Shown here: piece after piece, positions 20,199 through 50,196 of the stretch
Layout of the letters: each line of letters begins with the position of its first letter
How positions within the stretch are numbered: the stretch's first letter is position 1
Assembly (NCBI GenBank): GCA_016882195.1
Contig: VGLU01000001.1
Coordinates: forward strand, 166,001-226,297
DNA: 60,297 bases
Direction of reading: 5' to 3'
Origin: Thermoproteota archaeon
Lineage (GTDB): Archaea > Thermoproteota > Methanomethylicia > Methanomethylicales > Methanomethylicaceae
Notes under the pieces: generated by a model
What the model saw: only the letters and a program-made list of their open reading frames with translations
Database searches by the model: none
What the model was told of the DNA's origin: nothing
Program-made: the position numbers and the translations under genes

Positions 20199-20831
20199 GT
20201 GGGTAATAGCTTAAATCATTGGATGGGCTACAACATGGGTTCTGAGAGGAGCGGGGTGCTGGAGAGGGTAAAGAGGCAGATCCTGACCGTGGCGGGGACG
20301 CTGGGGGCTGCGGAGCTGAACATGGAGCAGCGCCAGACCGTGGCGGTGCTGGAGGAGAAGGCGATGGGGAACGTCCTCGGCGGGATGGGCAGGGGGAGGA
20401 ACGAGGGAGTGACCGAGACACTGAAGAGGGAGGTCGTGATGGTCTTCTTCGTGGACGCCAACTTCGTGATCCCCGAGGATCCCCAGATAATGGTCCTCAT
20501 GCACAAGGGCGAGGTGGTCGGCTGGACGTCCATGGATCCGAGCGTGATAAAGAGGTACAAGGAGGACAAGAACTACCTGGTGCTCAGCGACTACTTCATA
20601 ATAAAGAAGGACGCAAAGATCAGCGCCGCCGCCTTCGCCAGCGGGGACTCGTGCTTCATCTTCAAGGGCGCGCAGATGGAGGAGTTCTCGAGGATTCCGG
20701 AGATAAAGGATCATATCATCTCCATACCCTCACCGCCCGGCTTCGCCTACCTGCATACGCTCTTCAAGGACAAGATGGGCCTCAAGGACCCGAGGATAGG
20801 CGGATTCCTCATCGGATTCAACCTGAGATGA
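20199..20831 (+). CDS. Conserved-looking hypothetical protein
   Basis: 210 residues from the GTG at 20199; ATG codons at 20223 and 20235 are possible alternatives. It is divergent from the methyltransferase gene and shares an AT-rich promoter (TTTATATAATATATTTAATA, about 20161-20180). The first 80 residues are polar and helical. The second half alternates strands and helices (MVFFVDANFVIPEDPQIMV, then NYLVLSDYFIIKKDAKIS). No motif that I can name. Confidence 0.6.
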   Translation: MGNSLNHWMGYNMGSERSGVLERVKRQILTVAGTLGAAELNMEQRQTVAVLEEKAMGNVLGGMGRGRNEGVTETLKREVVMVFFVDANFVIPEDPQIMVLMHKGEVVGWTSMDPSVIKRYKEDKNYLVLSDYFIIKKDAKISAAAFASGDSCFIFKGAQMEEFSRIPEIKDHIISIPSPPGFAYLHTLFKDKMGLKDPRIGGFLIGFNLR

Positions 20832-30493: not shown

Positions 30494-32332
30494 CTGAGTT
30501 ATCAGGGCGGCTACACAGGAAAGCTCCTCAGGGTTGACCTCACGTCCAAAGAAATGCGTGAGGGGAGGCTGAGCGAAGAGGTTCTGAGGAAGTTCCTAGG
30601 CGGCAGTTCCCTAGGGGCAAAGATGATCTACGACGAGCTCGACCCCTCTGTGGGGCCTTTGGAACCTGATAATCTGCTCATATTCTTGACCGGCCCGCTG
30701 ACCGGAACCATGTGCCCCTCCTGCGGAAGGTACTGCGTCTGCACCAGATCGCCTCTGACAAACATATGGGCTGAGGCCCACGCGGCGGGCTACTGGGGTC
30801 CGGAGCTGAAGTTCGCGGGCTTCGATGGGATTGTGATAAAGGGGAGGTCCGAGAGGCCTGTTTGCCTATGGATCAAGGACGGGGCTTACGAGCTGAAGGA
30901 CGCCGTGGCGCTCTGGGGCAGGGACACCTACGAGACGGAGGAGGCGCTTAGAAAGGAGCTGCAGGACGAGAAGGTTAAGGTTGCATGCATAGGGCAGGCT
31001 GGCGAGAGGCTCGCAAGGATATCCTCGATAATGAACGACATGGGCAGGGCTGCGGGCAGGTGTGGCGTTGGGGCGGTAATGGGCTCAAAGAACCTAAAGG
31101 CGATAGCGGTAAGGGGGACGAAGGTGAACGTCTTCCCAGTGGCCAAGGAGGCTCAGCTGAAGGAGTACCTCCGGAAGATCTACGTCTCCATCAGATCCCA
31201 TCCAACGGTCCAGATCTACACCTCTTACGGTACGGACGGCATAATGAGCATGATGCACGAGTACGGGGACGTCCCGATAAAGTACTTCACGAGGGGCGAG
31301 TGGACCGACGGCGTCAGGAAGCTGTGCGGCGAGACCATGTCCAAGACGATCCTCTACAAGCAGTACGCCTGTTACAGGTGCCTGATAGCCTGCGGGAGGG
31401 AGGTCAAGGTCGCAGACGAGAAGTACGGGGTTTTGGGTGCAGGACCTGAGTACGAGACCTGCGCCTCGCTCGGCATGCTTTGTATGAACGACAACTTGGA
31501 AGCGGTCTCGAAGGCGAACGACCTCTGCAACAGGTACGGGCTGGACACCATATCCACGGGCAACGTGATAGCCTTCGCCATGGAGTGCTACGAGAAGGGG
31601 CTGATAACCAAGGATGAAGTTGGTCTGAACCTCACGTGGGGGAATGCCGACGCGATAATCGAGATGGTCAACAAAATAGGGAGGGGGGAGGGCTTTGGCG
31701 CCGTTTTGGGGGAGGGCGTAAGGAGGGCGGCAGAGAGGATAGGGAAGGGCGCGGAGGAGTTTGCGGTTCACGTCAAAGGGCTGGAGGTGCCCATGCACGA
31801 CCCGAGGGCGTTCAAGGGGATGGGGCTTCAGTACGCCACATCGCACAGGGGTGCCTGCCACCTGAGGGGAATGATGTACCATATAGAGCAGGGCGAGAGG
31901 GTGCCCGATCTTGGAATACACAAGAGGTACGAGAGGTTCACGGTCGACGACAAGGCTGAGCCGGTCATCGCCATGCAGAACTGGCACGACGTGTTGGACT
32001 CCATGATAATGTGCAAGTTCGCGATCGTGCCGCCGGCATCCGTCCTGGCTATGCTACAGATGGTCACTGGGTTGGACTACAAGCTCCCGGACCTGCTGAA
32101 GGCTGGGGAGAGGGCTTACAACCTGAAGAGGCTAATAAACGCGAGGTACGGGATGACCAAAAAAGACGATACCCTGCCCAAGAGGCTGCTACTCGAGCCG
32201 CTCCCCGACGGCGGATGCAAGGGGAGCGTGGTGGAGCTGGACAGGATGCTGCCCGAATATTATAGGTTGAGGGGCTGGGACGCGGAGGGTATGCCTACAC
32301 CTGAGAAGCTGCGGGAGCTCGGGCTTCCGTGA
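30494..32332 (+). CDS. aor: Aldehyde:ferredoxin oxidoreductase, tungsten-type
   Basis: Oxidises aldehydes to acids with ferredoxin using a tungstopterin. The first ATG in frame is at 30554 (592 residues), but the preceding codons encode GGYTGKLLRVDLTSKE, the conserved AOR N-terminus, so the true start is probably CTG (30494) or ATA (30491), just after GGAGGG. Cluster cysteines lie in CYRCLIAC (about 273-280 from the ATG) with a fourth near MIMCKF. Pterin-binding glycines and EAHAAGYWGPELKFAGFDG are present. The tungstate transporter at 46675-49080 supports tungsten rather than molybdenum. Confidence 0.92.
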   Translation: MSYQGGYTGKLLRVDLTSKEMREGRLSEEVLRKFLGGSSLGAKMIYDELDPSVGPLEPDNLLIFLTGPLTGTMCPSCGRYCVCTRSPLTNIWAEAHAAGYWGPELKFAGFDGIVIKGRSERPVCLWIKDGAYELKDAVALWGRDTYETEEALRKELQDEKVKVACIGQAGERLARISSIMNDMGRAAGRCGVGAVMGSKNLKAIAVRGTKVNVFPVAKEAQLKEYLRKIYVSIRSHPTVQIYTSYGTDGIMSMMHEYGDVPIKYFTRGEWTDGVRKLCGETMSKTILYKQYACYRCLIACGREVKVADEKYGVLGAGPEYETCASLGMLCMNDNLEAVSKANDLCNRYGLDTISTGNVIAFAMECYEKGLITKDEVGLNLTWGNADAIIEMVNKIGRGEGFGAVLGEGVRRAAERIGKGAEEFAVHVKGLEVPMHDPRAFKGMGLQYATSHRGACHLRGMMYHIEQGERVPDLGIHKRYERFTVDDKAEPVIAMQNWHDVLDSMIMCKFAIVPPASVLAMLQMVTGLDYKLPDLLKAGERAYNLKRLINARYGMTKKDDTLPKRLLLEPLPDGGCKGSVVELDRMLPEYYRLRGWDAEGMPTPEKLRELGLP

Positions 32333-35816: not shown

Positions 35817-36464
35817 ATGGCAACAAAAGAGGAAATTTTGGCAGGTCTAGCAAAGGCCGTGATAGATGGAGATGTCGATACTGCAAAAAAATGGGCGCAG
35901 GCTGCGATTGACAGCAACATTGATGCATTCGAGGCGCTTACCAAGGGCTGCCAACAAGGCATGAAGGTCATGGGTGACAGGTACTCCGCCGGGGAGGCGT
36001 ATATCCCCGAGATCATGCTCTCTGCAGATGCGATGTACACGACCATGGACATGTTGAGGCCACACCTGAAGGCAAAGGCTGTCGCACCGGGCACCATAGT
36101 GATGGGCGTCATAGAGGGAGACGTTCACGACATCGGCAAGAACATTGTGAAGATGATGCTGGAGGCTTCGTCTGTTAACGTGGTCGACCTAGGGAGAGAC
36201 GTGCCAATCGCCGCATTCGTTGACAAGGTCAAGGAGGTCAACGCCAACGCCATCGGCATGTCATCACTGATGACCACCTGCATGTTCAAGATGAAGGACG
36301 TCGTGGACATGCTGGTAGAGCAGGGTCTCAAGCCCAAGGTCAAGGTGATGGTCGGCGGCGCACCAATATCTGAGGAGTTCGCAAAGTCGGTCGGTGCCGA
36401 CGGATACGCTCCGGATGCCGCCGAGGCGGTCAAGGTCTTCGAGAAACTAATGAGGGGTGCCTAA
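35817..36464 (+). CDS. Corrinoid methyltransferase protein, MtaC/MtbC-like
   Basis: Carries the methyl group on its cobalamin between two methyltransferases. It has 215 residues: an N-terminal helical cap (about 1-88) and a B12-binding Rossmann domain with DVHDIGKNIV (102-111), in which H104 is the lower axial cobalt ligand, then SSLMTTCM and GGAPISEEFAKSVGADGYAPDA. It lies directly before a MtaA/MtbA-like gene and forms an operon with it. No substrate-specific MtaB, MtmB or MttB-type methyltransferase is next to it, so the methyl donor is unknown. Confidence 0.93.
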   Translation: MATKEEILAGLAKAVIDGDVDTAKKWAQAAIDSNIDAFEALTKGCQQGMKVMGDRYSAGEAYIPEIMLSADAMYTTMDMLRPHLKAKAVAPGTIVMGVIEGDVHDIGKNIVKMMLEASSVNVVDLGRDVPIAAFVDKVKEVNANAIGMSSLMTTCMFKMKDVVDMLVEQGLKPKVKVMVGGAPISEEFAKSVGADGYAPDAAEAVKVFEKLMRGA

Positions 36465-36465
36465 A

Positions 36466-37521
36466 ATGGTAACGTCATTGGAGAGAATAGTAGCAGCGCT
36501 TACCATGCAGGAGGCCGACCGAGTCCCAGCGGGACCGCTCGTATGCGGTGCCGCGCGGAGGGTCTACGGCATAACGTACGACAAGGCTGCAAGGAACCCC
36601 GAGCTCTGGGCGAGGTCTCTTATACAGTCGCAGAAGATGATTGGACACGACGGCTTCCTTCTGCTGGTCGATCTTAGCGTTGAGTGCGCAGCTTGGGGGC
36701 AGTCGGTGGATTACCCAATAGAGAGCACGCCGATAACAAAGGCGCTGAAGGGCGACCCGCTGATAAAGACCACTGAGGACTATGAGAAGCTTGAGTACGT
36801 GGACGCTAGAAAGGCAAACAGGATGAAGGATGTCATAAAGATAGCGGAGATTGTAGCCAAGGAAAAGGGCAAGGAACTTGGTGTAATGGGATTCGTTTAT
36901 GGACCGGCAGGGACCCTGTCCATGATGAGAGGCCTTGACAAGATGAGCATTGACCTCAAGAGGAACCCATCGGCGGTCAAGAAGGCGCTGAAGGTTATCA
37001 ACGATGTGTTGCTGGACTATACGGTGGCTCAGATGGAGGCGGGAGTCCACGCAATCGTCCTTGATGTCCTCTTCGCGTCAAAGTTCATCTGGAGCAGATC
37101 AGTCTACGACGAGTTCGAGGGCCAGTTCTGCACGAAGATCGCTGACGAGGTCCGCAAGCACAACTGCGTGGTAATACTGCACAACTGCGGCCAGGCAACA
37201 TACTTCGACACGATGATCAAGTGGTACAAGCCAACGGGCATCTCGATCCACTACCTGCCCGACGGTGTGACATCGTTGCAAGATCTCAAGGAGAAGTGGG
37301 GCAAGCAGACGGCCATACTGGGACTCATGGACTGCCCGAAGACGCTCTACATGGGAACCGAGGAGGACGTGATAAGGGAGGCGAAGGCTCAGATCGAGGC
37401 CCTAGCGCCGGGTGGAGGCTTCCTGCTCTGCTCGGGTTGCGAGTTCCCGCCAAACGCATCGCTTCTGAACGCCAGAGCCATGGTAGAGGCCTGCAAGATG
37501 TTCCCGTACAAGAAGTCGTAA
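36466..37521 (+). CDS. UroD-family methyltransferase, MtaA/MtbA/CmuA-like
   Basis: About 351 residues from the ATG at 36466, one base after the corrinoid protein stop; a GTG at 36457 is an alternative. The fold is that of uroporphyrinogen decarboxylase. The zinc site of methylcobamide methyltransferases is visible as H-x-C in LHNCGQ and a later Cys in CSGCEFPPN. It should move the methyl group between the corrinoid protein and a thiol (coenzyme M) or another acceptor such as tetrahydrofolate/tetrahydromethanopterin. The acceptor cannot be told from sequence. It may itself be the substrate-specific methyltransferase, as for some O-demethylases. Confidence 0.85.
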   Translation: MVTSLERIVAALTMQEADRVPAGPLVCGAARRVYGITYDKAARNPELWARSLIQSQKMIGHDGFLLLVDLSVECAAWGQSVDYPIESTPITKALKGDPLIKTTEDYEKLEYVDARKANRMKDVIKIAEIVAKEKGKELGVMGFVYGPAGTLSMMRGLDKMSIDLKRNPSAVKKALKVINDVLLDYTVAQMEAGVHAIVLDVLFASKFIWSRSVYDEFEGQFCTKIADEVRKHNCVVILHNCGQATYFDTMIKWYKPTGISIHYLPDGVTSLQDLKEKWGKQTAILGLMDCPKTLYMGTEEDVIREAKAQIEALAPGGGFLLCSGCEFPPNASLLNARAMVEACKMFPYKKS

Positions 37522-37526
37522 ACCAC

Positions 37527-37544
37527 CCTTTTTCCTTTTTTTAT
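37527..37544 (+). terminator. T-rich terminator after methyltransferase gene
   Basis: CCTTTTTCCTTTTTTTATT directly follows the stop codon of the methyltransferase gene. Such pyrimidine/T runs end transcription in archaea without a stem. The HyuA-like gene downstream has its own TATA-like element (CTTTAATA, 37554-37561), so it may be a separate transcript. Confidence 0.5.
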
Positions 37545-37586
37545 TACCCAACAGGCTTTAATAGAGAGAATTGGTGTGTTTCTCAT

Positions 37587-39548
37587 ATGTTTGGCGTCGG
37601 AATTAGCAGCGGCGGATCATTCACCGACGCGGTAATAATGGACCTTAAGGACTGGCGGGTCATCGCCAAGGCGAAGTCGCCGACGACCTACCAGGACTTT
37701 TCCCTAGGAATCATAAGCTCGCTCGACAAGGTGCTCTTGGCGAGCCAGATCCCCGCGGATCAGGTGGGGCTCGTCTCCCTCGCCACCACCCTCGCCACGA
37801 ATGCCATAATAGAGGGACGCGGGGGCAGGATCGGGCTCATTCTGATCGGGATAAAGCATTTGGAGCTGGTGGGGTTAAAGCCTGAGACCGCGAGGGATCT
37901 GCCCGTGCACAGCGTCGCGAGCATAGTGGGAGGGCACGGACCGGACGGGATCGAGGCCGCCCCGCTTGACGTCGGCGGCGTGAGGGAGGCGGTCAAGCAC
38001 ATGCTAGGGGAGGTCGACGGCTTTGCCGTCTCGGGGTTGTTCAGCGTCAGGAACCCCGAGCACGAGCTTACGGTCAAGAGGATGATAGCGCAGACCTGTT
38101 CAAAGCCGGTAGTCTGCGGTCACGAGCTCGCGGGCTCGCTGGGCATTTACGAGAGGACGGTCACGGCAGTCCTCAATGCAAGAATCATCCCGATAATCGA
38201 GCGCCTCATGAAAGAGGTGAAGGGGGCGCTCGCGCAGAGGGGGATCAGCGCGCCGCTCATGCTCGTGAGGGGGGACGGAGCCCTGATGAATGAGGCGGTG
38301 GCCCTCGAGCGGGCGATCGAGACTATCCAGTCAGGGCCGGCCGCAAGCGTCATCGGGGGCAAGTTCCTCGCCTCGAAGGACGACGTGGTGGTTATGGACA
38401 TCGGTAGCACAACAACCATCATTTCCACCGTGAAGGCTGGGACGGTAAAGACGGACGAGAGCGGCGCGACCATATCAGGGTGGAAGACGAGGGTACGGGC
38501 GGTCGACGCCGACGCTCTGGGCAACGGCGGTGATAGCAGGATCTGGATCGACGATGCAGGGAGACTGAAGGTCGGACCGCGGAGGGTGATGCCCCTCGCA
38601 TTTGCGTCCATAGACTTCCCAACATTGAAGGAGAAGATTGCCAAATCGGGCTCTTGGGAGTTCATAAACGCGTCCAAGGCAATGAGGAAGGTTGACGGCA
38701 GCGAACTCATTAACCGCTTCATCGGAACCGTCAGCAGGCTTGAGCCGATAACGTTGGACGGCCTGAAAAATGAGCTTAGTGATGTCCCGGTGGTTGATCA
38801 CCTTTTCAAGACGCTCGACGAGGCGGGCTTCATCGCTAGGATAGGTCTGACGCCAACTGACCTCATGCATATCAAGGGGCTGTTCCCGCTCGGCGACATC
38901 GAGGCTGCCAGAATGGGAGCGGAACTTCTGGCTAAGACGCTGGGCATCACGGCAGAGGAGCTCTTCGACAGGGTCTGGAAGATAATGGTTCACAAGATCA
39001 CGCTCAGGCTCACGGAGTTGCAGAACTCGGGCGGCGCCTCATACAGCAACTCGGCGGATCAAAGCGCCGTCATAGGTGTGCTTGAAAGCGTGGTCAGCGG
39101 CGCGCTCGGAGATCTCAAGATCTCATGCACGCTCAACTCCCCTATTGTCGGCATAGGAGCACCTGCGCACCTCTTTATACCCCAGGTGGCCAAGGAGCTG
39201 AACACCGAGGCCATAATACCCCCCAACCATGAGGTGGGTGCGGCCATTGGTGCGCTGATAGGTAACGTCGCGAGCACAAGCGAGTTCCTCATCAAGAAGG
39301 AGATGGCTACATCGAATTTCGTGGTCTTCCCCGGCCGGCATGTATTCACGGAGCTTGAGCCCGCGGTCGAGTTCACCTTAAAGATGGGCAAGGAGGTATC
39401 CTTCGCGCAGGCAAAAAGGGCAGGCGCCGCCGAGATCGAATTCAGGGTCGAGAGGAAGGACAAGGTTGTTCCAAATCTGGGGTTCATGTGGAGCGAGATT
39501 AAGGTAACTGCCACAGGCAGACCATCTCTGGAAGGGAGAGAGAAGTGA
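37587..39548 (+). CDS. Hydantoinase/oxoprolinase (HyuA)-like ASKHA protein
   Basis: About 653 residues from the ATG at 37587. The N-terminal GVGISSGGSFTDAVI (3-17) and the later VVMDIGSTTTIIST (about 268-281) are the two phosphate-binding motifs of the ASKHA/HyuA fold. The usual first aspartate (GIDVGGT) is replaced by serine. TLATNAIIEGRGGRIGLI is the HyuA signature. The place in a corrinoid cluster suggests an ATP-dependent role in corrinoid or methyltransferase activation, like RACE proteins that share the ASKHA fold, but no iron-sulfur domain is present. A true hydrolase of cyclic amides is the alternative. Confidence 0.8.
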   Translation: MFGVGISSGGSFTDAVIMDLKDWRVIAKAKSPTTYQDFSLGIISSLDKVLLASQIPADQVGLVSLATTLATNAIIEGRGGRIGLILIGIKHLELVGLKPETARDLPVHSVASIVGGHGPDGIEAAPLDVGGVREAVKHMLGEVDGFAVSGLFSVRNPEHELTVKRMIAQTCSKPVVCGHELAGSLGIYERTVTAVLNARIIPIIERLMKEVKGALAQRGISAPLMLVRGDGALMNEAVALERAIETIQSGPAASVIGGKFLASKDDVVVMDIGSTTTIISTVKAGTVKTDESGATISGWKTRVRAVDADALGNGGDSRIWIDDAGRLKVGPRRVMPLAFASIDFPTLKEKIAKSGSWEFINASKAMRKVDGSELINRFIGTVSRLEPITLDGLKNELSDVPVVDHLFKTLDEAGFIARIGLTPTDLMHIKGLFPLGDIEAARMGAELLAKTLGITAEELFDRVWKIMVHKITLRLTELQNSGGASYSNSADQSAVIGVLESVVSGALGDLKISCTLNSPIVGIGAPAHLFIPQVAKELNTEAIIPPNHEVGAAIGALIGNVASTSEFLIKKEMATSNFVVFPGRHVFTELEPAVEFTLKMGKEVSFAQAKRAGAAEIEFRVERKDKVVPNLGFMWSEIKVTATGRPSLEGREK

Positions 39549-39549
39549 T

Positions 39550-40200
39550 TTGAAGGTCATTCAGATAGCAGGCTTTCTGGGAAGTGGAAAGACCTCCGCC
39601 CTATTGATAATATCGAGGAAGATCAGTTCCGAGCATAAGAAGAGAGTTGCCATTATAGTCAATGAGATCGGCGACGTGCCTGTGGATGCCAGGGTTTTGG
39701 AGCTTGGCGGTCTGAGGGTAAAGGAGATAGCCGGGGGCTGCATCTGCTGCGAGCTCAGTGGCAACCTAGCTCTGACGCTATCAGAATTGGCTGACAAGTT
39801 TGGTCCAGATATCGTCCTGATTGAGCCCACAGGGGTCGCCATCCCAGATCAGGTGAAGGTGGCGATCGGCATGGGCCGCCGGGATACCACTATCCCAATA
39901 GACGCCGGTCCAGTTATCGTCATCTACGATGCCTTCAGGATCGATGAGCTCCTTTCCAATGAAACAGTAAACAATTTCATAAACAGACAGATTTTGAATG
40001 CCGACGTTGTAGCCATCAACAAGGTTGATCTCGTTGACGGGGCGCGTATTCAATACTGTGAGAATAAGATCCGGGAGACGAACCCGAACGTCAGGATGAT
40101 GAGGATATCCGCACTGAAGGGTGAAGGAATCGATGAACTGACCAGAATAATCCTCGAGGAGGAGGGCACCGCCAGCATTAGACCGGGTGCTCTGCCATGA
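39550..40200 (+). CDS. CobW/COG0523-type GTPase
   Basis: 216 residues. The P-loop is GFLGSGKT (8-15), the metal-binding GGCICC follows (about 61-66), and NKVD gives guanine specificity. G3 E-x-x-G is in IEPTGVA. These GTPases deliver or insert metals (Zn, Co, Ni). Here zinc loading of the MtaA-like enzyme or cobalt/corrinoid handling are both possible. The protein lacks the C-terminal domain of many CobW proteins. It starts with TTG one base after the HyuA-like stop and overlaps the next gene by 4 bases. Confidence 0.88.
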   Translation: MKVIQIAGFLGSGKTSALLIISRKISSEHKKRVAIIVNEIGDVPVDARVLELGGLRVKEIAGGCICCELSGNLALTLSELADKFGPDIVLIEPTGVAIPDQVKVAIGMGRRDTTIPIDAGPVIVIYDAFRIDELLSNETVNNFINRQILNADVVAINKVDLVDGARIQYCENKIRETNPNVRMMRISALKGEGIDELTRIILEEEGTASIRPGALP

Positions 40201-40604
40201 GTGGGCTTTCCCATTATGTAGCGGACAAAGAGTGGGGATACGGGATCGCCTTCAAACTGTCCTCATCAAAGGCTTTAACCCCCGAGGAGACGACTGAGAT
40301 GGCCCGTGAGGCTATGAAGGAACTGGCAGAGGAGGCCATTCGCAGGGGCGCCATAATGATAGGCCACATAAAGTGTATTCTTAAGGCCTCTGGCGGCTAT
40401 GTCAAGGCGGACACTATAGGCGCAAAATACGGCGTATATGTAGAGGCCAAGCTAACGGAGCCGGTGCGGGAGGCCATTCTGGTGGTAAACTCCATAGTTG
40501 TGGGCTTGAGCAAGGACGAGAACATAGAATTGACGCGTAACCTCACCAAGAAGGTCGCCGAAGGGTATGGTTTCAACGTGATAATTCTCGAAACGAAGAC
40601 CTAA
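40197..40604 (+). CDS. Unknown protein ending corrinoid cluster
   Basis: 135 residues, coupled to the GTPase gene by an ATGA overlap. It looks like a compact alpha/beta protein with EAMKELAEEAIRRGAIMIGHIKCILK and a repeat of hydrophobic strands (AILVVNSIVVGL, NVIILETKT). One His and one Cys (GHIKC) might bind metal. I do not recognise the family. Its tight coupling makes a joint function with the CobW-type GTPase likely. Confidence 0.75.
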   Translation: MSGLSHYVADKEWGYGIAFKLSSSKALTPEETTEMAREAMKELAEEAIRRGAIMIGHIKCILKASGGYVKADTIGAKYGVYVEAKLTEPVREAILVVNSIVVGLSKDENIELTRNLTKKVAEGYGFNVIILETKT

Positions 40605-40666: not shown

Positions 40667-41764
40667 TTATTTATCATTTTCAGTCGATTTCTCAAGAAGA
40701 GCACTTTTTACCATGCCTATTAAAACCTGTCTCAAAAATGGAGGTAAATTAACCGAATCGTATTCTTTCGTATTAGTGTTCACGCTCAGGGGCTCCGTGC
40801 TGTTATGAATCTGCTTAGAAAAGAGAAAATCGGTAAAATTTTTCCCCAAAACTTCTATTTTTCCAAATTCTGGCGGAATTAATCCTTTTTCGATATCCTC
40901 ATCTATTTTCACAGCGGCCATCAAAACCAAAGCGGAGAGCGGATCTTTTTTCAAAATTGTGATTAGGTAAGAGGACAGGGCATTCTCATCCGCATTCAGA
41001 CTTTTGATTTTCGATAATTCTGAGGCCAATTTCTCTATCGGCAACTGGCGTTCTTTGAGTCTTTCAAAGATCGAACGGCAGGGCAAATATTCGTCTTGGT
41101 TCAATATAGATTCTCTCACAGCCGATCTTGTGCAATGCCCAATTAATCTGCCCAGTTTCGAGGCTGGCCCGCCATACTTTATAGCCGAGCCTCTGTTTGT
41201 AGTTGCCACGACGAGGCTGTCCGTTATTGTTCCAGTAGCCGAGTCGCCAGAATACTTACTTCGTATATCTAAGGCCCTTAATGTAGCGGTTTTGGCCTCG
41301 GTTGCTGTACATAAAGTGCTCATCAGACAACTTTCCGTGGGATTTCCATCTATTAGGACTATCAAGTTTACTGTTCCGGTGATGGCTTCTACTTGTATAT
41401 CCTCACCGGCAGATTCGGCGTGATGGCAACCAGCGGTGGCAATAACGCTGACAGCAAGATCGCCCTCTTTTTTGGTGACCACGGAAAAATTATCTATCTT
41501 TGCAGCGGTAATCATACCAATCGCATCTTCTGTAAATCCAAGTTTTTTTGAAGAGTTTAAAACGAGAGTTTCCGGGTTCTCGTGAAGTATTTTATCGTCA
41601 TATCCTTTAGGGACTTCCACATTAAGTATTGTCTTTACTTTCTTGAAACCGCCATTATAAACAGCAGTGCTAACTGTGCTCAGAGGGGTGCCAGAGATTA
41701 CCGCGAGCACATTGCCCTTTAAGATTAATTCCACATCATTGTCAACAAGTTTAAATTGACGCAT
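40667..41764 (-). CDS. cbiZ: Adenosylcobinamide amidohydrolase CbiZ with C-terminal extension
   Basis: CbiZ cleaves the side chain of adenosylcobinamide so that salvaged corrinoids can be remodelled. The first about 230 residues match the family: LAVISGTPLSTVSTAVYNGG, TAGCHHAESAGED, NLIVLIDGNPTESCLMS, TEAKTATLRALDI, GTITDSLVVATTNRG. About 130 residues follow that have no clear domain. CbiZ is otherwise near 220 residues long. It sits beside the corrinoid methyltransferase cluster but is on the other strand and more AT-rich, so it was probably acquired separately. Confidence 0.88.
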   Translation of the reverse strand: MRQFKLVDNDVELILKGNVLAVISGTPLSTVSTAVYNGGFKKVKTILNVEVPKGYDDKILHENPETLVLNSSKKLGFTEDAIGMITAAKIDNFSVVTKKEGDLAVSVIATAGCHHAESAGEDIQVEAITGTVNLIVLIDGNPTESCLMSTLCTATEAKTATLRALDIRSKYSGDSATGTITDSLVVATTNRGSAIKYGGPASKLGRLIGHCTRSAVRESILNQDEYLPCRSIFERLKERQLPIEKLASELSKIKSLNADENALSSYLITILKKDPLSALVLMAAVKIDEDIEKGLIPPEFGKIEVLGKNFTDFLFSKQIHNSTEPLSVNTNTKEYDSVNLPPFLRQVLIGMVKSALLEKSTENDK

Positions 41765-41788
41765 AATGCCACCTTCAAAATATGTCTC

Positions 41789-43075
41789 TCATTGCTTAGC
41801 ACCCTTGAAGAACTCCCATGCTATATTGAATCTCCAGGGATCACCCTTCTCGGTTAACCGTATTTTGTTATCTCTAATCTCGATTAGCCCTTTTTGTTGC
41901 AATCTCCTTATGGCATCCGGGAATGCCTCTTCAGGGAACTTGCCGAACCGCGCATTAAACTCCTCACGGTCCACAGGAATCCGAATGTAGATTAGCATCA
42001 TAGCCTCCCTCATTTCATCTTCCTTTGAAAGCCTCGAAAGCTTTGCTACGGGAAGCACCCCTTTTTTAACTGTCGCAATATAATCTTGGACACCCTCTAT
42101 GTCTGAGTAGGGAAAGTTGCCTATGCGCCCCATGAAAAAACCAGCCCCCGTTCCCACAATCTCAGAAGAGGGTTTGTAAAAATCTTCCTTGAGCCTTGAG
42201 AACCTGTTGTGGCATGTGGGCGAATACCCATTTTCCTTGAAGGTATTATAAGCTTCAAGATACATTTCGAGTTCCGTTGCGCAACCACCAGCGGGAGGTA
42301 TCTCACCCATTGCAATTCTTTTTGCAAGACTCGTGTCCGGGTATATATCAAGAGGGTAACAATCCACGCTTTCCAAGTCCAACTCTAGCGCTTGCTTTAG
42401 GTCTTCTTTCCACTGCCTCAATGTCTGCGAAGGGAGGTTGTAGAGTAAATCGATGCTGACGTATAGTCCATGCCTCTTGGCCTCTTTCAATTTCAGCACC
42501 GCGTGTTGGCGGCTATCACGAAGCATAAGGATTTTGCGGAGTGAATCGTCAAATGTTTGGATCCCTATATCTAACTGGTCAACCTTATTTGAAGATAAAA
42601 GGCTTATTTTTTCCTCAGAAAGATTATTGGTGCACGCAGTGAATTTTGTAAGGGAGTCCTCCCTTAAGTTAAAAGTTTCTCTGCAATATCGCAAAATATC
42701 CACGATCTGTTCCTTTGCAATGACCGAGGGACTACCGCCACCCACGTAAAGTTCATTGAAAATGCTAGATTTGACGTACTTTTTTTCTGCGTAAAGGCCC
42801 AATGCCTTCTTCATAGCAGTTATGTATGATGCAACATTTTGCTTTTCACAGCTAACAGGAAAATAGCAAAAGGCACATCTACCATCGCAGAATGGAATCC
42901 AGGGCTGAAGTTCGCTCACCTGATCGGTTATTTTTTCTGTTTTGAGAAAATCAGTAAAAATAGTGAGGGCGCGGGAGGTGGGAACTGCAAGATCTCTGTA
43001 GGTCATCGGAGGCCAGTGTTCAATTTTATCATATGGCCAACCCCCATGACTTACATGTTGCATCGGAAGTTCCAC
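41789..43075 (-). CDS. HemW/HemN-like radical SAM protein
   Basis: 428 residues. The radical SAM cysteines are C63, C67 and C70 (CDGRCAFC). GGGSPSV and DLLYNLPSQTLRQW are the SAM-binding motifs of the HemN/HemW/ChuW group, and the C-terminal winged helix (EEFNARFGKFPEEAFPDAIRRLQQKGLI) is typical too. The group includes heme chaperones and anaerobilin synthases. Its place 24 bases upstream of cbiZ on the same strand hints at tetrapyrrole or corrinoid handling, such as heme or cobinamide breakdown; this is inference. GTG start with a TATA box nearby. Confidence 0.85.
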   Translation of the reverse strand: MELPMQHVSHGGWPYDKIEHWPPMTYRDLAVPTSRALTIFTDFLKTEKITDQVSELQPWIPFCDGRCAFCYFPVSCEKQNVASYITAMKKALGLYAEKKYVKSSIFNELYVGGGSPSVIAKEQIVDILRYCRETFNLREDSLTKFTACTNNLSEEKISLLSSNKVDQLDIGIQTFDDSLRKILMLRDSRQHAVLKLKEAKRHGLYVSIDLLYNLPSQTLRQWKEDLKQALELDLESVDCYPLDIYPDTSLAKRIAMGEIPPAGGCATELEMYLEAYNTFKENGYSPTCHNRFSRLKEDFYKPSSEIVGTGAGFFMGRIGNFPYSDIEGVQDYIATVKKGVLPVAKLSRLSKEDEMREAMMLIYIRIPVDREEFNARFGKFPEEAFPDAIRRLQQKGLIEIRDNKIRLTEKGDPWRFNIAWEFFKGAKQ

Positions 43076-46366: not shown

Positions 46367-46681
46367 GTGGGTATTTTGATAATTGTGGAGTTTTCTATCG
46401 TCCCCCTGGGAACTGGAGGCACGAGCATGAGCGACTACGTCTCAAAGGCTTGCAGGGAGGTAGAGAAGTCGGGCGTCCGCTATATGATAACACCGATGGG
46501 AACGATCATAGAAACAAATACTGTCGACAAGGCGTTTGAGGTAATAAAAAAGGCGCACGAGGCGGTGATCAAAGCAGGAGCCGCCAGAGTGAGCACCAGC
46601 ATCAAGATTGACGACAGGAGGGACAAGGAGAGGAGGATGGAGGACAAGGTCAAGGCAGTAAAGGTCAAAACGAGTCAGTAG
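46367..46681 (+). CDS. Thiamine-binding-like protein, MTH1187/YkoF family
   Basis: 104 residues. VEFSIVPLGTGGTSMSDYVSKA and YMITPMGTIIETN are the family signatures (DUF77). These proteins form ferredoxin-like tetramers and may bind thiamine or its parts. GTG start at 46367. Its stop overlaps that of the convergent tupC by 7 bases. The S component at 44769 could share its ligand, but this is a guess. Confidence 0.88.
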   Translation: MGILIIVEFSIVPLGTGGTSMSDYVSKACREVEKSGVRYMITPMGTIIETNTVDKAFEVIKKAHEAVIKAGAARVSTSIKIDDRRDKERRMEDKVKAVKVKTSQ

Positions 46682-47397
46682 ACCATCTCTCCCCTGATAA
46701 AAGAGAGTGTCTTGCTGTCCCGAGGGCTCGCGAAGAAGGCGGCGGAGTCGCTGAACTCCACGAGCTCGCCCTCGAGCAGGAAGGCAACGTTCTTGGCAAG
46801 CCTCTTCGCTTGGAATATGTTGTGGGTGATCACTATCACCGTGGTTCCCTGTTCCCTGTTTGATCTCTGCAGCACCTCCTCGATTATCGAGACATTGTAG
46901 GGATCGAGGTTTGCGGTTGGCTCATCCAAAAGGAGGAGGTCAGGGTCGTACACCAAAGCTCTCGCTAGCGCCACCCTCTGGGCTTCCCCGCCGGAGAGGG
47001 TCAGCGCGTTTCTCCCCCGAAGGTCGTGGAGGCGGAGGAGCTTCAGCATCTCCTCCACCTTCTTCTTTATTGTCTCGCCCTCTTCCCCGCGGAACTTCAG
47101 GCTGTACGCGATGTTGTTGAAGACCGTGGTGTTGAAGAGAACGGGGTTCTGAAAGACCATCCCAATCATCTTCCGGTGAAGAAAGGGCTCACCAGAGATC
47201 TTCTTGCCCTTGAGGAGCACCTCTCCAGAGTCAGCTTTCTCCAACCCGTCGATGATCCTGAGAAGCGTCGTCTTGCCGGAGCCGCTGGGACCAACCACGG
47301 AGAGGAGGTCCCCGCCCTCGATTTCGAAGGTCACGTCCTTTAGGGCATGTTTCCCATCGTAGCTCTTGCTTATCGATCGGCACTCAAGGAAGGACAA
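46675..47397 (-). CDS. tupC: Tungstate ABC transporter ATPase
   Basis: 240 residues. Walker A is GPSGSGKTTLL (about 35-45), the signature LSGGEAQRVALARAL (about 135-149) and Walker B LLLLDEPTANLD. It powers uptake of the oxyanion bound by TupA. It is the last gene of tupABC, 17 bases after tupB. The assignment to tungstate rests on the sequence of all three proteins, the TupR regulator and the AOR gene in the window. Confidence 0.9.
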   Translation of the reverse strand: MSFLECRSISKSYDGKHALKDVTFEIEGGDLLSVVGPSGSGKTTLLRIIDGLEKADSGEVLLKGKKISGEPFLHRKMIGMVFQNPVLFNTTVFNNIAYSLKFRGEEGETIKKKVEEMLKLLRLHDLRGRNALTLSGGEAQRVALARALVYDPDLLLLDEPTANLDPYNVSIIEEVLQRSNREQGTTVIVITHNIFQAKRLAKNVAFLLEGELVEFSDSAAFFASPRDSKTLSFIRGEMVY

Positions 47398-47414
47398 TCT
47401 ATCCCCTCCGCATC

Positions 47415-48131
47415 TTATGTGGTCCTCCTTACCCTCGACCGCATCTGCAGGTACGTAAGGAAGAGGTTCACGCCGAAGGCTATCAGAAGCAGTATTATCC
47501 CCAGCGCGATGGCGGTCGCGAACTCACCCATATTTGTGTAGAGCATTATGGCAGTGGTGAGTGCGCGGGTGTAGCCGAGGAGGTTCCCGCCCACCATCAT
47601 TATGGCACCCACTTCGGAGATTGCTGCACCGAAGGCTGCTATTATTGCGGTTATTAGCCCGAGCTTGCTCTCATTTAGGAGGACCCTCGCCTCCCATGAA
47701 GGGGGTGCCGACAGGGACACCAGCGTCTCCTTCAGCTTCGGGTTCAGGCTCAGGACGGAGGATATAGTGATCCCGCACACCACTGGGAAGGTGAGTATCA
47801 TCTGGGCAATTATCATGGCCTCCGGCGTGTATAGGAGCCTCAGGAAGCCGAGCGGGCCGGACACCGAGAGGAATAGGTAGACGACAAGGCCGACCACCAC
47901 GGGGGGCAGGCCCATCAGGGTGTTGATGACGGTGGTGACAACGGACCTCCCTCGAAAGTCCTTCCTCGCCACCAGGAAGCCGATGGGGATGCCGAAGGCT
48001 GCGCCCAGCAGGGTCGCGGCCAGCGAGACCCTCAGCGACAGGAGGGTAATCTCGAGTATCCCCTGGTCGCCGGAGAGGAGGATCTGGAGGGCCCTTGCGA
48101 AGCCCTCGGCTATTACCTCGAAGCCGTCCAA
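47415..48131 (-). CDS. tupB: Tungstate ABC transporter permease
   Basis: 238 residues with about five to six membrane helices. The EAA loop, which contacts the ATPase, is around AAFGAAISEVGAIMMVGGNLLG (about 175-196). It starts 7 bases after tupA. TupB proteins have this length and the ISEVGA motif. Confidence 0.9.
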   Translation of the reverse strand: MDGFEVIAEGFARALQILLSGDQGILEITLLSLRVSLAATLLGAAFGIPIGFLVARKDFRGRSVVTTVINTLMGLPPVVVGLVVYLFLSVSGPLGFLRLLYTPEAMIIAQMILTFPVVCGITISSVLSLNPKLKETLVSLSAPPSWEARVLLNESKLGLITAIIAAFGAAISEVGAIMMVGGNLLGYTRALTTAIMLYTNMGEFATAIALGIILLLIAFGVNLFLTYLQMRSRVRRTT

Positions 48132-48138
48132 CTTATCA

Positions 48139-49080
48139 CTACTCCAAACCTTTCGACTTTAGCAGAGAGTTGAGGTAGGTCACGGTGGCATTCTCTGAAG
48201 GCAGACCGATCGACTCCGGATTGCCGTAGACGGGGAAGAAGAGCTGCCTGCCGTCCACCGTGAAGTTGCCGATCAGCGACTGCCCCTGCCTGCTCACCAT
48301 GAAGAGGAGGAAGTTCGTGGCGAGGTCAGAGTTGATGTTTGGGTGCTTGGTGGAGTTGAGGAGTATTATGCTGTACGGGTTCAGGAGCGAGGTATCGTTC
48401 TCGCAGAGTACTACAAGGGAGAGGGTGGCGTTCATCGTCGACCGGAGCTTGTAGAAGGATCCCCGATCGCTTATGGTGTAGCCGCCCCTCTCGTTGGCGA
48501 CCCTTATCGTCGGCGCCATTCCGGACCCTGTGGATACGTACCATGTGCCGCTGGCGGATACGCCCGCGTCCGCCCACAACCTCTTCTCGAGGGCTTCTGT
48601 GCCGGAGTTGTCGCCCCTGGAGACGAAGGCCGCGTTGCCGTCGGCTCCTGCTCGGGCGATCCTGATCATCGCCTCCGTGGCGTTCGTCCCCCTCGCGCCT
48701 GCGGGATCGTTTGGAGGCCCTACTATCACGAAGTCGTTGTACATCACCGTCACCCTGAGCGTGCCGTTGCCGGACGAGACGAAGGCCTCCTCCCTTGCCC
48801 TGTCGTGGACCAGCAGGACGTCGGCGTCGCCCCTTGAAGCTACTTCTAACGCCTGCCCTGTGCCGAGGTAGAGCCATGTCATGTTCGCACCGAACCTGTT
48901 GTCGAAGTAGGGCTTGAGGTGGTCCAAGAGGCCGGTGTCTGCGGTGCTGGTGGTCGTCGCGATTACGAGCCTCTGGGGGGCGGCTGGCTTGTTTACGTAA
49001 AAGATCGCCAGGATTGCGGCTATTACCACGATTGCCACCACGACAAGAACCGAGATTCTGCTGTCTTTCAGCGAGGGCAC
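48139..49080 (-). CDS. tupA: Tungstate-binding protein TupA
   Basis: About 313 residues from the GTG at 49080 with GGTGAG upstream; a longer frame to 49296 would run through the regulatory palindrome and into tupR. An N-terminal membrane anchor (about 9-30, ISVLVVVAIVVIAAILAIFYV) places it on the outer face. The binding protein has LVIATTTSTADTGLLD, AFVSRGDNSGTEALEKRLW and YTISDRGSFY, the TupA pocket segments for the oxyanion. Confidence 0.92.
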   Translation of the reverse strand: MPSLKDSRISVLVVVAIVVIAAILAIFYVNKPAAPQRLVIATTTSTADTGLLDHLKPYFDNRFGANMTWLYLGTGQALEVASRGDADVLLVHDRAREEAFVSSGNGTLRVTVMYNDFVIVGPPNDPAGARGTNATEAMIRIARAGADGNAAFVSRGDNSGTEALEKRLWADAGVSASGTWYVSTGSGMAPTIRVANERGGYTISDRGSFYKLRSTMNATLSLVVLCENDTSLLNPYSIILLNSTKHPNINSDLATNFLLFMVSRQGQSLIGNFTVDGRQLFFPVYGNPESIGLPSENATVTYLNSLLKSKGLE

Positions 49081-49095
49081 GCGCTCACCGCCTGT

Positions 49096-49119
49096 CGTTA
49101 TATTTTTATGAATATAACG
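49096..49119. promoter_or_regulatory. ModE-like operator between tupA and tupR
   Basis: CGTTATATT-N6-AATATAACG has perfect 9-base arms, close to the ModE box known from bacteria (CGTTATAT half-site). It lies in the 75-base gap between the divergent tupA and tupR genes and overlaps the likely tupA promoter. Confidence 0.8.
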
Positions 49120-49155
49120 GTCATCTTTAAATAAGTTACGGTAGAGTTTAAAATC

Positions 49156-50196
49156 ATGAAGCCCGGCTTTACGGTCTGGCTGGAGGAGGACGGGAGATAC
49201 ATTCTGGGAGAGAAGGAGGCCAGCATACTTGAAGGAATTAAAAAGTTCGGGTCCTTCATGGCGACGGCGAAGTCCCTCGGAATGACCTACGCTCACGTCT
49301 GGATCGTTGTGGACGAGCTCTCCAAGAGGGTTGGTGAGCCAGTGGTTAGGGCACAGAGGGGCGGCGAGACCGGAGGGGGCGCGGTCCTCACGGACGCCGG
49401 GAACCGTTTTTTGGAGGAGTACAAGGCTCTGGAGGAGAAGGTCTCCAACTTCCTCGGTTCAAAAAAGGAGTTCATCTTCATCGAGTTCAAGAGACCAGAC
49501 CTCGCCATCATCGGAAGTAGCTGCGTCGGTGTCAAGGTACTTGCTGAGATGGTGAAGGGCCTCTCGACGGAGGTTGTGGAGGTGGGCTCGAGCGCGGGGA
49601 TAACGGCGGTAATGCTGGGGGAGGCTGACGTGGCAGGCATCCACCTCTTCGACGAGGAAAGTAAGACATACAACGTTCCGTTCGTTAGGAGGGCGTGGCC
49701 TAGCGGGATGGCGGTGTTGATCAGGGGGTACACCAGGGAGCAGGGGCTGATGATGAAGAGGGGGAACCCGAAACATATTAGATCAATAGAGGACCTGCGG
49801 CACAGGGGCGTGCGTCTAATCAACAGAAACTTGGGCTCCGGCACGAGGGAGCTTTTGGATAGGCTGCTGAGGGAGCACAGGATAGCGCCCAAGGATGTCA
49901 AGGGCTACGACTTCGAGGTTAGGACCCACGAGGAGGTGGCGAGGGCGGTCGAGGAGGGAAGGGCAGATGTGGGGCTGGGCCTCAGGGCAACGGCCTCAGT
50001 TTTAGGCCTTGACTTCGTGAAGGTCTGCGAAGAGAGCTTCGACTTTGTCGTAGAGAGGAGGAGGCTAGGGAAGTCGTCTGTCAGGGCCTTTATTGAGGCG
50101 CTCAAGTCTCCAAGGTTTGGAAGGGAGCTGGAGGGCAGGGCGCCGGGGATAAACACCCTTCCCGATACCGGAAAGGTACTAGATTATGGGAAGTAG
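49156..50196 (+). CDS. TupR/ModE-like regulator with binding-protein domain
   Basis: 346 residues. The N-terminal ModE-type winged helix (about 15-90; EKEASILEGIKKFGSFMATAKSLGMTYAHVW) should bind the palindrome upstream. The rest is a periplasmic-binding-protein-like sensor (about 110-330; GSSAGITAVMLGEADVAGIHL, INRNLGSGTRELLDRLL), related to the oxyanion-binding TupA. It probably senses tungstate or molybdate and controls tupABC. The 3' end overlaps the convergent gene by 13 bases. Confidence 0.9.
   Translation: MKPGFTVWLEEDGRYILGEKEASILEGIKKFGSFMATAKSLGMTYAHVWIVVDELSKRVGEPVVRAQRGGETGGGAVLTDAGNRFLEEYKALEEKVSNFLGSKKEFIFIEFKRPDLAIIGSSCVGVKVLAEMVKGLSTEVVEVGSSAGITAVMLGEADVAGIHLFDEESKTYNVPFVRRAWPSGMAVLIRGYTREQGLMMKRGNPKHIRSIEDLRHRGVRLINRNLGSGTRELLDRLLREHRIAPKDVKGYDFEVRTHEEVARAVEEGRADVGLGLRATASVLGLDFVKVCEESFDFVVERRRLGKSSVRAFIEALKSPRFGRELEGRAPGINTLPDTGKVLDYGK

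Follow-up and report, generated by a model that had tools for sequence, protein, structure and literature searches.

Methylotrophic methanogenesis is fed by corrinoid methyltransferases, and the activation known for these enzymes depends on RACE proteins. ATP-dependent hydantoinases and 5-oxoprolinases of the canonical kind require a partner protein, HyuB. Here, we describe a five-gene module in which a HyuA-like protein of the ASKHA fold lies with a corrinoid protein, a zinc-type methyltransferase of the URO-D family, a COG0523 (CobW) GTPase and a 135-residue protein, termed P135. The module occupies positions 35,817 to 40,604 of a 60,297-nucleotide stretch of DNA (the window) from a Thermoproteota archaeon of the family Methanomethylicaceae (assembly GCA_016882195.1, contig VGLU01000001.1, positions 166,001 to 226,297). 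In the explanation we favor, to which we give a probability of roughly 0.5, a corrinoid/zinc methyl-transfer pair is accompanied by an ATPase dedicated to it and by a metallochaperone in two pieces, which would serve its maturation or activation, and HyuA is not a hydantoinase.

Several described systems come close to this locus. MtsA of Methanosarcina barkeri carries out both half-reactions with only its corrinoid partner, according to Tallant et al. 2001 as cited in PMC4153887 and PMC10418091. COG0523 subfamily 13 has already been reported together with archaeal corrinoid methyltransferase genes by Haas et al. 2009 (PMC2770081), who also connect the COG0523 proteins of Bacteria and Archaea with zinc limitation. 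In a bacterial glycine betaine cluster, a HyuA-like protein (HydA) is co-induced with corrinoid methyltransferases (PMC9768040), and a HyuA-like gene lies near mtaCB2 in Methanosarcina acetivorans (PMC11619418). Such HyuA-like proteins appear with corrinoid proteins in the papers searched as mentions from annotation or proteomics only. No description of the HyuB-less clade, the split GTPase or the five-gene locus was found in the literature searched; subscription papers lie mostly outside that search.

All five genes of the module lie on the plus strand. A preliminary description, made from the sequence alone, had named these families and had described the last three genes as tightly coupled; Pfam matches and the motifs DVHDIG, LHNCG, CSGCEF and GGCICC bear out the families, and the coupling is seen in a 1-nt gap between the HyuA and GTPase genes followed by a 4-nt overlap with the P135 gene. 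The corrinoid protein (35,817 to 36,464, 215 residues) is a corrinoid-binding methyl carrier of the MtbC/MtaC/MtgC-like type. Matches to PF02607 (6.7e-19) and PF02310 (8.9e-26), together with the cobalt-ligand motif DVHDIG (DxHxxG) in its translation, place it among methyltransferase corrinoid proteins, and its score against TIGR02370 (203.8 bits) is slightly below the cut-off of 215.3. Its relatives in the Protein Data Bank (PDB) include MtmC (3ezx), MtaC (2i2x) and the trimethylamine (TMA) corrinoid protein 7xcn.

The methyltransferase gene (36,466 to 37,521, with an alternative GTG start at 36,457) is coupled to the corrinoid gene and encodes a divergent MtaA relative (PF01208, 7.8e-53). 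MtaA (4ay7) is its sole PDB relative, and alignment shows that the H, C and C zinc-ligand positions are kept. In these ligands and in its place beside a corrinoid protein, it resembles MtaA, MtbA, MtsA and the methyltransferases of the type 1 mlp clusters (PMC10418091). It differs from MtaA, MtbA and MtsA in scoring 138 bits against the MtaA/CmuA model TIGR01463, under the cut-off of 235 that two other URO-D genes of the genome exceed, and in the context of its third ligand, which is SGCE rather than PGCG. The signature HNC...SGCE(F/V)PP, which reads HNC...SGCEFPP in the window, is shared with the URO-D proteins that adjoin HyuA in Methanomassiliicoccales, while MtaA-type copies read HICG...PGCG. 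In the tree, the window's protein forms a clade with that of a second genus of the family (genome G010), and the Methanomassiliicoccales group is a separate clade. The type 1 mlp clusters contain a RACE gene, and no HyuA or CobW is mentioned for them in the text consulted; the window's locus contains no RACE gene.

No separate substrate methyltransferase is encoded nearby. Since MtsA performs both half-reactions, one corrinoid protein and one methyltransferase of the URO-D family can together suffice as a system, and by analogy with MtsA the window's protein may take the methyl donor itself. Elsewhere in the same genome, contig C3 has a tandem pair of MtmB-like genes (458 and 455 residues, PF05369) next to a corrinoid protein (L021:4775-7530). 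Both are open over their full length with no in-frame stop, so they appear to be without the pyrrolysine codon usual for MtmB.

The HyuA-like protein (653 residues) is encoded at 37,587 to 39,548; its true start is 37,587, and the mechanical open reading frame begins falsely upstream at 37,221. It has the Hydant_A_N (PF05378, 1.5e-29) and Hydantoinase_A (PF01968, 3.3e-33) domains of HyuA, OplA and ApcC, the latter domain matched over its first half only. Its orthologs are 52-64% identical within Methanomethylicaceae and 33-39% in Methanomassiliicoccales. The closest named copies are from a Candidatus Methanomethyliaceae metagenome-assembled genome (MAG; 64%) and two Verstraetearchaeota/Methanomethylicota MAGs (52-53%). 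HyuB (PF02538) is found neither in the window's genome nor anywhere in its order, and only 1 of 101 Methanomassiliicoccales genomes has it. The search itself works, because it detected HyuB alongside HyuA in other families of Methanomethylicia. In a tree made by a quick method and with long outgroup branches, 63 HyuA copies, the corrinoid-associated ones and their relatives, group together and away from the outgroups that are partnered with HyuB. The missing HyuB, the corrinoid neighborhood, the separate clade and the loss of an aspartate discussed below all set the window's protein apart from HyuA, OplA and ApcC. Because the obligate partner is missing, a hydantoinase is an unlikely identity for HyuA and was rejected; the amide-hydrolase alternative that the preliminary description had raised against its own proposal thus loses ground.

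HyuA could still act on a substrate. Its solved relatives, the 5-oxoprolinase 6yra, the N-methylhydantoinase 7hk5 and the acetophenone carboxylase 5l9w, act on substrate carbonyls, and HyuA would likewise activate a methyl donor such as an amide, a hydantoin or a betaine by phosphorylation at its carbonyl oxygen. The corrinoid protein and the URO-D methyltransferase could then take the methyl group from a donor that is less easily demethylated. Consistent with this, HyuA often lies directly beside the corrinoid and URO-D genes in the absence of CobW and P135 (L172, L173 and L175), genomes carry several HyuA paralogs that would suit several substrates, a divergent HyuA occurs with S-Me-THD/DUF917, corrinoid and MtmB-like genes, and the HyuA-like protein of PMC9768040 is induced with glycine betaine. 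However, HyuB, which completes the reaction in 5-oxoprolinases and hydantoinases, is missing, and in the window's family the aspartate of the phosphate-1 motif is a serine. We know of no corrinoid demethylation that requires phosphorylation of the substrate. On balance, substrate activation by HyuA is unlikely.

The divergent HyuA just mentioned has 526 residues and lies with a corrinoid protein and MtmB-like genes at two loci, L048:282-8826 (genome G026) and L049:3-6378 (genome G025). A transporter-like gene lies upstream, and at L048 a DUF917/S-Me-THD gene adjoins the HyuA gene. HyuA may have another role in the metabolism of corrinoids here.

HyuA shares with the RACE proteins RamA and RACo the ASKHA fold and a place next to corrinoid proteins and methyltransferases. 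The preliminary description had noted ASKHA phosphate motifs and had suggested an Fe-S-free reactivator or a maturation ATPase. The family assignment stands, but the motifs are degenerate: phosphate-1 reads ISSGGSFTD instead of DTGGTFTD, and in phosphate-2 the D of GGTSTD is replaced by I. All 62 readable Methanomassiliicoccales copies retain the phosphate-1 aspartate; the four Methanomethylicaceae copies have Ser in its place and Ile in that of the Asp after phosphate-2. The protein is otherwise conserved between genera (52-64% identity), so it is probably functional in the window's family, perhaps with altered use of ATP.

Replacement of RACE by HyuA, with HyuA driving the corrinoid protein back from Co(II) to Co(I), would agree with the common fold and with several loci that contain HyuA and no RACE gene nearby. 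It conflicts with the presence of one RACE-type activator in the window's genome (contig C21, PF14574 match, not the window's contig) and of RACE in most genomes of Methanomethylicia. Both genes also stand together in several loci, such as L126, L161 and L164. Moreover, none of the cysteines in 68 HyuA copies is conserved in more than 90%, which leaves no conserved cysteines for electron transfer or for an Fe-S cluster as in RACE, and RACo_C_ter (PF14574) is not among the Pfam matches of the HyuA-like protein. Replacement is therefore highly improbable. HyuA is an addition to RACE, since RACE occurs in the same genome and most of the class and some loci hold both. In the locus type that contains RACE, HyuA follows a 457-residue protein without an assigned family (L058:7639-9935, L180 and L184), and at L058 an ArsR-like regulator also precedes HyuA.

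The GTPase (39,550 to 40,200, 216 residues, TTG start) belongs to COG0523: it has a G3E domain (PF02492, 9.5e-36), the Walker A motif GFLGSGKT, the CxCC motif GGCICC, EPTG, and NKVD at the NKxD position. Its nearest solved relative is YjiA (1nij). The chain consists of the G domain only, and no C-terminal domain follows on it. P135 (40,197 to 40,604) matches nothing in Pfam or NCBIfam. It adjoins CobW in the members of Methanomethylicia whose locus was read and in 26 of 26 loci from ten Methanomassiliicoccales genomes. Natural fusions, with P135 following the GTPase in one chain, occur in several genomes of Methanomethylicaceae and in one from another class.

The AF2 model of P135 (pLDDT 89.4, pTM 0.82), compared alone with all PDB chains, finds YjiA, a zinc-binding COG0523 GTPase, as its top fold match, and this match is weak (E 2.5e-3, TM 0.34). 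For a natural CobW-P135 fusion, YjiA is the first match (E 1.4e-13) over 360 alignment columns across both domains, and other G3E proteins match chiefly over the G domain; the orientation between the domains of this model is unreliable (pTM 0.57). Because P135 is adjacent or fused to CobW wherever checked and the fusion resembles YjiA over both domains, P135 is best read, from these models and the gene order, as the split-off C-terminal domain of the GTPase. It would fill the place of the COG0523 C-terminal domain, and descent from CobW_C is not proved; there is no CobW_C match among 14 P135 members. Several copies have His-rich stretches, as expected for a metal handler. The window's GTPase is like COG0523 subfamily 13 in its Walker A and CxCC motifs and its co-location with archaeal corrinoid methyltransferase genes. 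It differs from the subfamily as described in that most genomes encode the C-terminal half as a gene of its own, P135, for which CobW_C gives no match.

Three other identities for P135 were considered. The split-domain reading replaces that of an independent new family. In three genomes of one other genus, P135 matches a HypA-like gene at about 21 bits, which is too weak to make it a HypA relative. PDB profile matches to designed ankyrin repeats, with low bits and a motif-like character, were judged spurious.

Further CobW-P135 genes occur in other settings. A second pair in the window's own genome (contig C3, L020:5266-11410) has as neighbors a corrinoid gene and three genes of the URO-D family; two of the latter are MtaA/CmuA-like and score over the cut-off. 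A 198-residue protein without a Pfam match (L033:8350-8943, L153:8508-9101 and L154:9021-9617, with a weak relative at 20,199 to 20,831 of the window) is encoded between RACE and a URO-D protein without zinc ligands, next to a fused CobW-P135 gene. In this URO-D protein, the HxC and the third Cys are lost.

The neighborhood recurs in two phyla. In G010, the same five genes stand in the same order and are followed by CbiM (confirmed by Pfam) and by CbiN-, CbiQ- and CbiO-like genes. The full set is also found in a different phylum, in Methanomassiliicoccales, with a somewhat different order. At L188, L193 and L194, the genes for the corrinoid protein, URO-D protein, CobW, P135 and HyuA follow one another on one strand. 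Variants have a tandem HyuA pair (L125, L127, L128, L177, L183 and L187) or RACE with one or two MtaA-like genes (L126, L129, L178-L181, L184 and L186), and CbiM and CbiO adjoin L134, L137, L192 and L194. Among the 101 Methanomassiliicoccales genomes, HyuA occurs in 91 and P135 in 65. HyuA lies within 10 kb of 46 of their 123 P135 genes, with about 3 expected overall at random places, and within the same distance of 41 of the 47 best-scoring copies. Half of the HyuA loci in the locus survey were picked for having P135 nearby, so frequency is taken from the distance count over the 123 copies only. This repeated gene order, read from sequence comparison, argues for more than chance.

The same counts bear on another role for CobW-P135. 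The pair could have a general part in zinc or cobalt homeostasis when metal is limiting, in which case the neighborhood would reflect only joint regulation by metal supply and HyuA would be unrelated. The link between COG0523 and zinc limitation (PMC2770081) and the cobalt-uptake genes CbiM/CbiO and the CbiZ gene beside some copies fit this role, as do 8 of the 26 P135 loci, which lack genes for methyltransferases, RACE and HyuA in their vicinity. In the other 18, all from Methanomassiliicoccales, P135 is found by corrinoid, methyltransferase, RACE or HyuA genes, and the gene neighborhood is conserved in two phyla. General metal homeostasis is decidedly unlikely as the explanation.

For the favored explanation, a methyl-transfer pair with its own ATPase and metallochaperone, the sequences show the gene families, the recurrent locus, the constant company of P135 and CobW, the lack of HyuB, and genes for RACE and mcrA; we infer the protein contacts, the metal, the substrate and the activity of HyuA from gene content and context. 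In methanogenesis, the URO-D methyltransferase would probably move methyl groups from its donor by way of the corrinoid protein, with coenzyme M or another thiol as acceptor. The GTPase, as G domain, and P135, as C-terminal domain, would form a two-piece metallochaperone that supplies the methyltransferase with zinc or manages cobalt on behalf of the corrinoid protein. Zinc is favored by the zinc enzymes found beside most locus types and cobalt by the CbiM/CbiO neighbors. HyuA, an ASKHA ATPase without HyuB, would act on the corrinoid protein or its pair. Its task may be loading, a change of ligand or conformational state, or preparation for the reduction by a separate RACE. An independent precedent is the HyuA-like protein of PMC9768040, whose induction on glycine betaine accompanies that of a corrinoid methyltransferase cluster. 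That HyuA-like protein is likewise encoded and induced with corrinoid proteins and methyltransferases; the methyltransferases there belong to the MttB superfamily rather than being a URO-D pair, and HydA is a putative relative of the HyuB-less clade.

A number of observations weigh against this explanation. Methyltransferase genes may cluster regionally in these genomes, which makes the random expectation of about 3 too low, and the eight P135 loci noted above have none of the expected genes nearby. In the window's family, the full five-gene set occurs in only two of the searched genomes. The HyuA genes of G025 and G029 are on short contigs without corrinoid genes, and G025, G026 and G028 have CobW-P135 without an adjoining HyuA of the window's type; in G026 and G028, the pair is next to the corrinoid and URO-D genes. 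Among 20 sampled HyuA loci without P135, 9 have no corrinoid or URO-D gene nearby. Comparison of P135 with the YjiA C-terminus by hhalign is not significant (P = 0.06-0.12, barely above shuffles), and loss of the phosphate-1 Asp puts ATP hydrolysis by the window's HyuA in question.

With these points included, the repeated neighborhood with corrinoid methyltransferases that the preliminary description had predicted is found, and its corrinoid-linked accessory set is upheld by comparative genomics. Two of its proposals fall away: the 135-residue protein as an independent unknown, now read as the C-terminal half of the GTPase, and HyuA as a stand-in for RACE. A more far-reaching version is offered tentatively. 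The HyuB-less HyuA clade may be a new class of ATP-dependent maturation or activation factor for corrinoid proteins, distinct from RACE, which works with a split COG0523 metallochaperone on a new corrinoid/URO-D pair for a putative new donor of hydrogen-dependent methylotrophic methanogens in two phyla. If true, an additional ATPase without its usual hydrolase partner and a two-gene metallochaperone would point to unexplored maturation steps, and the module would mark a putative methyl-transfer pair for a new substrate in uncultured methanogens. The analysis also corrects the likely misannotation of HyuB-less HyuA genes as hydantoinases. Since Methanomassiliicoccales has cultured members, the module can be tested through its relatives in that order.

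The host genome, a Methanomethylicaceae-like MAG of 1.45 Mb that is 97% complete, contains mcrA, so the host is probably a methylotrophic methanogen. Four of its proteins have a B12-binding_2 domain. Within the module, the two coupled gene blocks are parted by a T-run (37,529 to 37,545) followed by a TATA-like box (37,556 to 37,564), a layout read from the sequence by eye and also seen in G010. The T-run is a possible archaeal terminator, and with the TATA-like box it suggests that HyuA, the GTPase and P135 may form their own transcription unit.

Directly downstream, on the minus strand and convergent with the module, are genes for CbiZ and a HutW/HemW-like radical SAM protein (40,667 to 43,075). 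CbiZ (40,667 to 41,764; PF01955, 1.6e-49) is an adenosylcobinamide amidohydrolase of cobamide salvage and is taken as a neighbor whose membership in the module is not shown. Farther away, the window contains ABC transporter-like genes (46,675 to 49,296) and an aldehyde:ferredoxin oxidoreductase gene (30,554 to 32,332; PF01314/PF02730), and a link of these genes to tungstate or molybdate is a guess.

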